Part shown: positions 18,798-20,790 of the stretch, in pieces
Numbering within the stretch: the first letter of the stretch is position 1
Layout: each line of letters begins with the position of its first letter
Source: a virus
Length of the DNA stretch: 23,956 nt
Reading direction: 5' to 3' (one strand)
IMG/VR virus record: IMGVR_UViG_3300030419_000388
Coordinates: 1 to 23,956 of that record
Program-made: the position numbers and the translations under genes
The notes under the pieces: generated by a model
Told to the model about the DNA's origin: nothing
What the model saw: the letters and a program-made list of their open reading frames with translations, nothing else
Database searches by the model: none

Positions 18798-19112
18798 ATG
18801 GCAAATGAAATAACCCCCTTTGATGCTGTAAGATCGTTAAAACCTGGTGTAACCTTTGGATGGAATCCTGACACAAAAGAAATTACAGGTTGGGATACTT
18901 CTAAAGGTTCACCACCTTCAGACTCTGAAATAGAGACTGAAGTTAATCGTCTACAAGCAGAATATGATTCAAAGGAATATCAAAGAAAAAGAAAACCACT
19001 GTATCCTTCAATAATCGATCAATTAGATATGCAGTATTGGGACCAAGTAAATGGTACTACTACATGGAAAACAGCTATAGATAAAATCAAAGCAGATAAT
19101 CCTAAACCATGA
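18798..19112 (+). CDS. Tail-fibre-associated conserved protein with YPSIxDQLDMxYW motif (104 aa)
   Basis: The 104-aa product ends with YPSIIDQLDMQYWDQVNGTT followed by TWKTAIDKIKADNPKP. This C-terminal motif is frequent in small cyanophage proteins coded next to fibre genes (from memory). The N-terminal half has GVTFGWNPDTKEITGWD and a helical Glu/Arg-rich linker. A role as a tail fibre assembly factor or chaperone is plausible but unproven. It starts 2 bases after the second fibre in TAATTATG and overlaps the next gene by 4 bases (ATGA). Confidence 0.75.
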   Translation: MANEITPFDAVRSLKPGVTFGWNPDTKEITGWDTSKGSPPSDSEIETEVNRLQAEYDSKEYQRKRKPLYPSIIDQLDMQYWDQVNGTTTWKTAIDKIKADNPKP

Positions 19113-19516
19113 TAGATATACCTAGAGCTAACCTACCCAAGGCTCTAGATATACCTCAGATGTATCTAAGACAGCCAAGAGGGTTAGTACCATCATATAG
19201 ACCTATGGTCATCCCTCCAGCTGATTTAGAACGTCCAGAGGAAACAGAACCTGCAGATGATGAGAAAACAGAACAGCCAGAACCACCAAGTTTAAAGATA
19301 CCTGTAATAGATATACAGATGCCAATACCTGAAACAGCGGTAGTGGTAACGGCTGTAACGACAGCTGTAGTGGCAGTAACAACAACTACCATTACTCAAT
19401 CTTTATTTGAACCAATTAAAAAGAAAGTACAGAAACAATTACAAGCTAAAGTCAACAAATGGAAGGAAAACCGCAAGAAAAAAAAGGACTCCTCAAAAAA
19501 CTCAAAGACGGAATAG
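19109..19516 (+). CDS. Cyanophage-type small membrane-anchored or structural protein (135 aa)
   Basis: The protein has a Pro-rich N-terminal half (ALDIPQMYLRQPRGLVPSYR, PMVIPPADLERPEETEP), an acidic stretch, then a hydrophobic Val/Thr/Ala segment at about residues 89-115, and a very basic C-terminal tail rich in Lys. The IP-rich opening with VPSYRP followed by a single membrane segment is, from memory, a recurring small cyanophage protein, sometimes listed as structural. It begins in an ATGA overlap and its end overlaps the holin candidate by 58 bases. Function is not established. Confidence 0.7.
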   Translation: MIDIPRANLPKALDIPQMYLRQPRGLVPSYRPMVIPPADLERPEETEPADDEKTEQPEPPSLKIPVIDIQMPIPETAVVVTAVTTAVVAVTTTTITQSLFEPIKKKVQKQLQAKVNKWKENRKKKKDSSKNSKTE

Positions 19517-19770
19517 AGGACCAAGAAGCCCAAATACAGATCCTTGGAACATTCGTCAGGCTTGGCGTTGTGGTTTGGTCTGGATTTATTATAACTTTAA
19601 ATTATGTAGAAATACCAATGGTCAAAAAATCTGGTAACTCAGATATCACGTTCGTTGCTTCGGTGTTTACAGGAGCATTGGCGACTTTTGGCTTGGCTAC
19701 TGGTAATTCTAAAGATAAGGGTAATGCAACACCCGTCAACTGTCCTATGGTAAAGAAAAAAGAAGAATGA
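19459..19770 (+). CDS. Probable holin-like membrane protein (103 aa)
   Basis: The 103-aa product has a basic N terminus (GKPQEKKGLLKKLKDGIED), two hydrophobic segments at about residues 29-50 (LGTFVRLGVVVWSGFIITL) and 64-82 (ITFVASVFTGALATFGLATG), and a basic tail ending KKKEE. Size and layout fit a two-segment holin, and the DITFVASVFTGALATFG element is familiar from small cyanophage membrane proteins (from memory). No endolysin gene is in the window, so the lysis role is inferred from topology. The gene starts inside the preceding gene and overlaps the following one by 4 bases. Confidence 0.65.
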   Translation: MEGKPQEKKGLLKKLKDGIEDQEAQIQILGTFVRLGVVVWSGFIITLNYVEIPMVKKSGNSDITFVASVFTGALATFGLATGNSKDKGNATPVNCPMVKKKEE

Positions 19771-20138
19771 AGAAATGGTTATTACTCTTAATGCTGGCAT
19801 CACCCACGGTGGCAAGAGCCGAATTAGTTACCCCTCAATTCACCCAGGGAAGCATGAATTCAACAACAACTACGACCCAAGAGATAACCGAGGAAATAAC
19901 CACCACAACTTATGGGTCAGCCTTAAACAAATGGTCTGGGGACAATATAACCCATACCTCAACCTCTTCAGGAGGTATAGCGGATTCAGATTCCGTATTC
20001 AACATGACAACAGCAGGGAGCGACTTCTCTCTAGAGATAGTAACAAGAGCAGCCAGTCAAGTTCTAGAGGTAACAGAAATCGAAAGAACTATAGAAACTA
20101 CTGCTACTACTACCTCGCTCTCTGTCTTCTCACAATAG
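19767..20138 (+). CDS. Secreted cyanophage structural-type protein with Thr-rich region (123 aa)
   Basis: A signal peptide is clear: MKKWLLLLMLASPTVARA, cut near ARA at residue 18. The mature part opens ELVTPQFTQGSMNSTTTTTQ, is rich in Thr and Ser, and ends SLSVFSQ. Proteins with the same opening and ending occur in many cyanophages beside the next gene's family (from memory). It probably works outside the cytoplasm or is a minor virion component. Start overlaps the holin-like gene (ATGA). Its last 208 bases overlap the next frame if that gene starts at 19931. Confidence 0.75.
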   Translation: MKKWLLLLMLASPTVARAELVTPQFTQGSMNSTTTTTQEITEEITTTTYGSALNKWSGDNITHTSTSSGGIADSDSVFNMTTAGSDFSLEIVTRAASQVLEVTEIERTIETTATTTSLSVFSQ

Positions 20139-20776
20139 GAGTACCTGTATATGCTGGTGAAGGAGAAACCAACAATACTTCAAACCCTGTGGCAGCGGCT
20201 ACAGGAAACGTTACAAACCAAGCTGTTCAATTCCAGAACAATGGAGCCCCGTCTCGTCAAGTATACGGTCCCAATTCGTCCTGTAATGGAGCAACAATGA
20301 CATTTAGCCCATTCTATATGGGCAATCATACCACTCCTTTTGATGATACTATGAGTCAACAAAGCTATACTGTAGCTGAGAACTGGGGGTTCCAAATTAA
20401 TTTTATGGTTCCCCTAGATGGCTCTACTGTAGAAATATGTAAATCGATAGCTAGAAGACATGCTGCAAAGATGGATTTAGATTATGAACTTGTCCGTGCT
20501 TTAAAGTGTGCAGAGATACAACAAAAAGGTTTTATGTTAGTACCTGGTTCTAGGGTATATCATATGTGTGAAGACGTAGTACCTATAGTAGCTTTTAATA
20601 AGGTTATTAAGACAGAACAAAACAAACAATGTAAACCTATAAAGAAAAAATACCCATGGCAAAAGCAAAAGCAGCTGTGTCCGAAAAAGTTTCAACCGAT
20701 AAACCCGCAGCAGCTTCTAAATCCGTTAGCAAAGTTTACGGAAAAACCCAAGCAAAGTCCACTCGTGGCACCTTAG
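19931..20776 (+). CDS. Cyanophage conserved protein (TGNVTNQAVQFQNNGAPSRQ family); start uncertain
   Basis: The recognisable part begins at about 20156: GEGETNNTSN, then TGNVTNQAVQFQNNGAPSRQ, SCNGATMTFSPFYMGNHTTP and a Cys-containing C-terminal half (ALKCAEIQ, YHMCEDVVPI). Proteins of this kind are widespread in cyanophages (from memory). Just before it, in the same frame, YYYLALCLLTIGVPVYA looks like the core and cleavage site of a signal peptide, but no ATG, GTG or TTG lies close upstream. The nearest ATG is 19931, with an odd basic Arg/Asn/Ser-rich leader of 58 residues; another is at 19775. Either the gene starts far inside its neighbour, uses an unusual start, or is made by frameshifting from the 19767 gene. 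The last 120 bases also overlap a basic 44-aa frame. Confidence 0.7.
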   Translation: MVWGQYNPYLNLFRRYSGFRFRIQHDNSRERLLSRDSNKSSQSSSRGNRNRKNYRNYCYYYLALCLLTIGVPVYAGEGETNNTSNPVAAATGNVTNQAVQFQNNGAPSRQVYGPNSSCNGATMTFSPFYMGNHTTPFDDTMSQQSYTVAENWGFQINFMVPLDGSTVEICKSIARRHAAKMDLDYELVRALKCAEIQQKGFMLVPGSRVYHMCEDVVPIVAFNKVIKTEQNKQCKPIKKKYPWQKQKQLCPKKFQPINPQQLLNPLAKFTEKPKQSPLVAP

Positions 20777-20790
20777 ATAAAAGACCTTAA
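20656..20790 (+). CDS. Small basic Lys/Ala-rich protein (44 aa)
   Basis: A 44-codon frame from ATG at 20656 to TAA at 20788-20790 encodes a Lys, Ala, Ser and Val-rich peptide (AKAKAAVSEKVSTDK, then VYGKTQAKSTRGTLDKRP). The composition recalls small DNA-binding or histone-tail-like peptides. It overlaps the end of the preceding gene by 121 bases in another frame, and its codons look coherent, so I think it is real. No family is recognised and no ribosome site is evident. Confidence 0.5.
   Translation: MAKAKAAVSEKVSTDKPAAASKSVSKVYGKTQAKSTRGTLDKRP

Follow-up and report, generated by a model that had tools for sequence, protein, structure and literature searches.

A conserved out-of-frame gene overlap in T7-like and T4-like cyanophages, with its own start codons and an overprinted predicted export signal

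The window analysed here is a 23,956-base viral contig fragment of a T7-like cyanophage near NATL1A-7, P-SSP10 and P-SSP7. It raised the question of how translation of a protein begins when its apparent signal peptide is encoded, out of frame, in the end of the gene before it. The first-pass annotation had noted a credible signal-peptide end preceding GEGETNN over the last codons of a 123-aa gene. It had left a choice between a distant start at 19931, an unusual start codon and a -1 ribosome shift from the upstream gene, and had named a sequencing error that removes an ATG as one possible refutation. The out-of-frame overlap at this locus is conserved, has start codons of its own and is explained without a frameshift or an exotic start. 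We infer, with a probability of roughly 0.87, that gene 2 encodes a separately initiated exported protein whose start or starts and signal peptide are encoded in the -1 frame inside gene 1. The features are as follows.

19459..19770, + strand: upstream gene, 103 aa, with hydrophobic stretches; DUF6450 (Pfam PF20048, E=2.4e-32)
19767..20138, + strand: gene 1, ATG to TAG, a 123-aa predicted secreted protein (phrog_650, E=1.1e-31; alignment)
19775..19777, + strand: upstream in-frame ATG of gene 2, which would give a 333-aa form (sequence; K3 codon use)
19931..19933, + strand: conserved gene 2 start at gene-1 codon 56, over Lys-Trp AAA TGG (codon counts, stops, divergence)
19931..20776, + strand: gene 2 (gp165-like), 281 aa (phrog_848, E=2.3e-51; phrog_1755, E=7.9e-51)
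20105..20155, + strand: signal-peptide core and predicted SPase I site at the end of YYYLALCLLTIGVPVYA, overprinted on the final codons and stop of gene 1
20136-20138, + strand: gene 1 stop, inside the signal-peptide region of gene 2
20156..20773, + strand: predicted mature domain of gene 2, 206 aa (alignments, structure model)

The gene pair and its surroundings

The window, a P-SSP7/NATL1A-7-like cyanopodovirus fragment, carries gene 1 (19767-20138) and, overlapping it in the -1 frame, gene 2. The open stretch of the gene-2 frame runs from 19754 to 20776 and contains in-frame ATGs at 19775 and 19931; with the first of these, the overlap can span essentially all of gene 1. The stop of the upstream gene (TGA) and the ATG of gene 1 share bases in an ATGA junction, and ATG 19775 lies just after it, 8 nt past the gene 1 ATG. 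The tail-fibre region and the hydrophobic DUF6450 protein, whose P-SSP7 homologue is annotated with two TM regions, are followed by the gene pair and then by the terminase (downstream maturase). T7 has a holin and Rz/Rz1 in the corresponding region of its genome.

The cassette is compressed over 18798-20138: the genes at 18798-19112 and 19109-19516 overlap by 4 nt, those at 19109-19516 and 19459-19770 have 58 nt in common out of frame, and the ATGA junction (19770/19767) falls within the same stretch. Over the 3′ end of gene 2, a Lys/Ala-rich ORF of 44 aa (MAKAKAAVSEK...) occupies 20656-20790 in another frame, and 9515-10a carries an annotated CDS (L083:3376-3507) where this ORF would match, so that gene 2 may have an overlapping gene at each end. 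Elsewhere in the window, a porin-like secreted protein of 119 aa (MKTIALALAATSFATAPAMAGVYVNAESNAS...) is encoded at 62-421, directly upstream of the capsid gene.

The N-terminus of the gene 1 product, MKKWLLLLMLASPTVARA, is a predicted cleavable signal peptide, and its C-terminus, SLSVFSQ, is conserved in the alignment. No match above cut-off was obtained in Pfam or NCBIfam for either gene. For gene 1, DUF6322 was rejected as a weak hit (E=0.0056) under the family cut-off, the best result of the PDB sequence search reached only E=0.53, and fold matches to pores of the beta-barrel type and to components of phage tails were weak, not significant and unused.

For gene 2, cleavage is predicted between VPVYA and GEGETNN, with a core that spans the last codons and the stop of gene 1; the segment that the first-pass annotation described as a credible signal-peptide end was confirmed, at 20105-20155. 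Among 166 distinct relatives the residue at -3 was V, A, S, L, T, G or I before Ala at -1, the latter being demanded by the search pattern itself. The n-region of the 281-aa form is basic, with 13 K/R against 3 D/E, so that the marks of SPase I export (a positive n-region, a core and small residues at -3 and -1) are all present in a protein for which cleavage is predicted. An n-region of 57-109 residues is, however, unusually long for a signal peptide and counts against the model. The mature domain has four conserved Cys in the alignment and was modelled at moderate confidence (pLDDT 68, from input alignments built from contig loci only) as a beta-hairpin and a long helix. A PDB sequence search with gene 2 gave no match, and a fold search with moderate-confidence models of the two proteins (pLDDT 68 and 72) gave no PDB match below E=0.08; a viral structure library returned the same cyanophage family. 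Homologues of gene 2 occurred in 461 phage records, all of them cyanophage or uncultured/marine virus entries, gene 1 being likewise confined to records of these kinds, and the phrog_848 and phrog_1755 profile matches cover its exported domain. Homologues of the pair are present in NATL1A-7, P-SSP10, 9515-10a, P-SSP7 and T4-like cyanophages.

Protection of the second frame and position of its starts

Close relatives were gathered via gene 2 and, independently, via gene 1, giving 144 non-redundant sequences below 97% identity. No stop occurred in the gene-2 frame over gene-1 codons 56-123 in any of them; over codons 15-55 there were 20 stops, in 11 of the 144. Within-sequence synonymous shuffling of gene 1 predicted approximately 181 stops in codons 56-123 (66 sequences) against none seen, and approximately 70 before codon 56 against the 20 seen (shuffle of the first 66 sequences). 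Where a third-position T in gene 1 would create a gene-2 stop after codon 56, T was used at 0 of 798 sites, compared with 38% elsewhere there. The absence of stops from codons 56-123 and the shuffle together indicate that the openness of the second frame is not due to chance. Amino-acid similarity z-scores for the second frame were high in every segment through shared ancestry and were left out of start placement.

The first-pass annotation had listed 19931 as one possible start and had counted homologues plainly beginning at its position as a refutation. This refuting condition was realised, and the codon counts and the distribution of stops strongly supported the start at 19931. In the gene-2 frame, codon 56 read ATG in 113, GTG in 28, TTG in 1 and CTG in 2 of the 144 relatives, i.e. 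one of ATG, GTG or TTG in 142. Most sharply, one relative (L032) reads TAA ATG right at codon 56. In 25 sequences Ser, Thr or Ala stood in place of the Lys before W56, and in 23 of these the four-fold degenerate third base was A or G, against a background of approximately 40%; the sequences share ancestry and do not represent 25 independent events. A constraint boundary near codon 56 was indicated by the fall in four-fold-site divergence of gene 1 from 0.593 (bootstrap 0.563-0.623) over codons 21-55 to 0.439 (bootstrap 0.411-0.466) over codons 57-123; the non-overlapping part of gene 2 diverged at 0.602, the same as codons 21-55. Inspection of the sequence before ATG 19931 revealed no evident Shine-Dalgarno sequence, which counts against a start there, and little amino-acid constraint was found between 19931 and the hydrophobic core (gene-1 codons 57-90).

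The earlier statement that the core has no standard start near it also stood, but the ATG at 19775 had been overlooked. In the gene-1 tree, the sequences with upstream stops formed one 22-leaf clade plus a single further sequence (L020). The remaining lineage, that of the window, comprised 121 sequences, a group defined by the absence of stops, so that the test that follows is biased towards openness. In this lineage the third codon of gene 1 (K3), which supplies ATG 19775, was AAA in 121/121, and K2 was mixed AAA/AAG; this signal may be confounded by a preference for A-rich codons close to starts. Over codons 5-55, none of 74 four-fold changes at sites that could yield a stop was to the stop-making T, compared with approximately 17 expected by hand arithmetic from neighbouring-site rates. 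The long frame from 19775 therefore seems, from these codon patterns, to be maintained in the window's lineage, where the 281-aa form may be accompanied by one of 333 aa.

The same data could be read to mean that gene 2 starts only at 19775 here, as a protein of 333 aa, and that 19931 is an internal Met forced by the Lys-Trp of gene 1. This would be a sub-variant of independent initiation and not of frameshifting. The invariant K3 and the lack of stop-making changes outside the stop-bearing clade agree with it, as does the annotation of NATL1A-7 and 9515-10a, which begins at the corresponding ATG. Yet in the 11 sequences with stops between the two ATGs, 19931 or a later start suffices; the synonymous divergence of codons 21-55 is not reduced; no amino-acid constraint was found on the stretch between 19775 and 19931, codons 21-55 included; and purines before W56 persist even where the Lys is lost. 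We regard a start at 19775 alone as unlikely, though deserving of serious attention.

Starts in distant relatives and routes to the second protein

T4-like cyanophages carry the same pair; of their 77 typed loci, 74 have gene 2 in the -1 phase. In these phages a conserved ATG (MDR...), usually preceded by AAAGAAAC or AAGGAAAC, lies 21 codons before the gene 1 stop, and it bore out the suggestion of the first-pass annotation that homologues be inspected for a start of their own near the core. In P-SSP7-like phages, gene 2 has a GTG or ATG 37 codons, or an ATG 22 codons, before the gene 1 stop. At three T4-like loci (L170, L171 and L173) the phase of gene 2 is +1, and its start is a TTG downstream of GGAG. 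Predicted SPase I motifs persist across all these groups, as judged with a search pattern that demanded Ala at -1.

Also in T4-like loci, a second predicted secreted gene lies just upstream of gene 1 (L190:660-1121; also L176:642-1127 and L201:660-1121). It is a gene 1 paralogue (37% identity, 92 columns, E=3e-10), and the T4-like cassette therefore has three predicted exported proteins in a row. A T4-like Pro-rich neighbour was considered as a homologue of the window's gene at 19109-19516, and the match was not significant. At another T4-like locus (L238:10-205), gene 2 has a different N-terminal signal and no detectable overlapping gene 1, possibly a non-overlapping state of gene 2.

Under a programmed -1 frameshift, ribosomes would slip from gene 1 and yield a fusion of the two products. 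The phase, which was -1 in 87/87 typed cyanopodovirus-query loci as well as in the T4-like majority, and the strong conservation of the end of gene 1 would both be expected. However, the slippery heptamer X XXY YYZ was found in only 2 of 144 sequences, at one codon position, in line with the earlier remark that no classical heptamer is seen at the overlap; none is conserved. Every lineage has conserved start codons inside gene 1, at differing positions, some of them nearer the core, and in three relatives the phase is +1. A fusion would, moreover, put a second signal peptide within an already exported chain. Neither of the marks of such a frameshift, a conserved heptamer and a second frame without its own start, was thus present. 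Start sites that move, and even a change of phase, about an export signal that stays constant favour independent initiation over a fixed frameshift. The -1 shift raised in the first-pass annotation is accordingly very improbable.

With a non-standard start codon directly upstream of the core, the signal peptide would have a usual length, and a GTG nearer the core is used in P-SSP7-like relatives. In the window clade, however, no column of ATG, GTG, TTG, CTG, ATT, ATC or ATA was conserved besides gene-1 codons 4 and 56, and the frame is shielded from stops far upstream of the core. This earlier proposal found no near-cognate column to support it and is likewise very improbable. The contig is a metagenomic virus fragment, in which a sequencing error might have deleted a nearby start or shifted the frame, but cultured NATL1A-7, P-SSP10 and 9515-10a show the same layout, as do many independent contigs, and this refuted the possibility.

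In the preferred reading, separate initiation of gene 2, ribosomes would initiate at ATG 19931, a start that all close relatives conserve, and in the window's lineage could initiate additionally at ATG 19775. Termination-reinitiation at the ATGA junction could feed both frames, and reinitiation at either ATG would be a natural route to both proteins. The overprinted hydrophobic core would direct the gene 2 protein to the inner membrane, where signal peptidase I would cut after VYA and free GEGETNN... into the periplasm. Initiation, export and cleavage are predicted here from sequence; the computational results show that the overlap exists and is conserved, where the starts lie and that the cleavage motif is conserved.

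Public annotation and comparison with known systems

The pair was mis-called in all eight records examined. No CDS for gene 1 appears in the entries for NATL1A-7, P-SSP10 and 9515-10a, in which gene 2 is called from one or other of the two ATGs; in P-SSP7, P-RSP2, SS120-1, S-SBP1 and S-H38, gene 1 is present and gene 2 is called downstream of its signal peptide. Public annotation thus loses either one gene or the export signal, which conceals that both proteins look exported, as judged from their predicted signal peptides. Literature searches found no description of the gene 1/gene 2 overlap. Annotation errors of the same kind have been described for overlapping spanin genes, which overlap-averse gene calling conceals (PMC6139136).

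The overlap is common to two unrelated phage morphologies with cyanobacterial hosts, and because it is conserved across both, a translated second frame could be inferred from sequence alone. The presence of the cassette in both morphotypes favours a role in the host envelope, itself a speculative proposal, over one tied to the particle. A function in lysis is offered as a hypothesis only. In the survey of Kongari et al. (2018), marine cyanophages made up 20 of 91 spanin-less phages, and P-SSP7, Syn5, S-PM2 and Syn9 were among the phages without a known outer-membrane disruption protein (PMC6139136). The pair is a concrete candidate for outer-membrane disruption by cyanophages, though without the spanin lipobox. 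It is conceivable, but we think improbable, that it represents an envelope module, for outer-membrane disruption or another purpose, that has been missing from the picture of marine cyanophages. It would then be a non-lipoprotein counterpart of Rz/Rz1 common to T7-like and T4-like phages, with a product ratio fixed, in the window's lineage, through reinitiation in different frames at ATGs that lie 8 nt from each other.

The closest known proteins are the gp165-like cyanophage protein (phrog_848/phrog_1755) and phrog_650, which are direct homologues of the pair in the same gene order. Like the Rz/Rz1 spanins of lambda and T7 (18.5/18.7), the pair comprises two proteins directed to the envelope, and their genes overlap in shifted frames close to the large terminase gene; overlap or embedding in different frames is a feature that it shares with spanin genes. 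It differs from them in that the lipobox Cys of a spanin lipoprotein is absent: both gene 1 and gene 2 proteins have SPase I-type signals with no Cys at either cleavage site, and no spanin sequence or fold match was found for the pair. As in other phage overlapping frames with dual starts, the second start lies inside another gene, near an ATGA termination-reinitiation junction. What sets the present case apart from such overlaps in general is that the export signal itself is overprinted and that the overlap persisted through several shifts of the start, one of them into the other phase.
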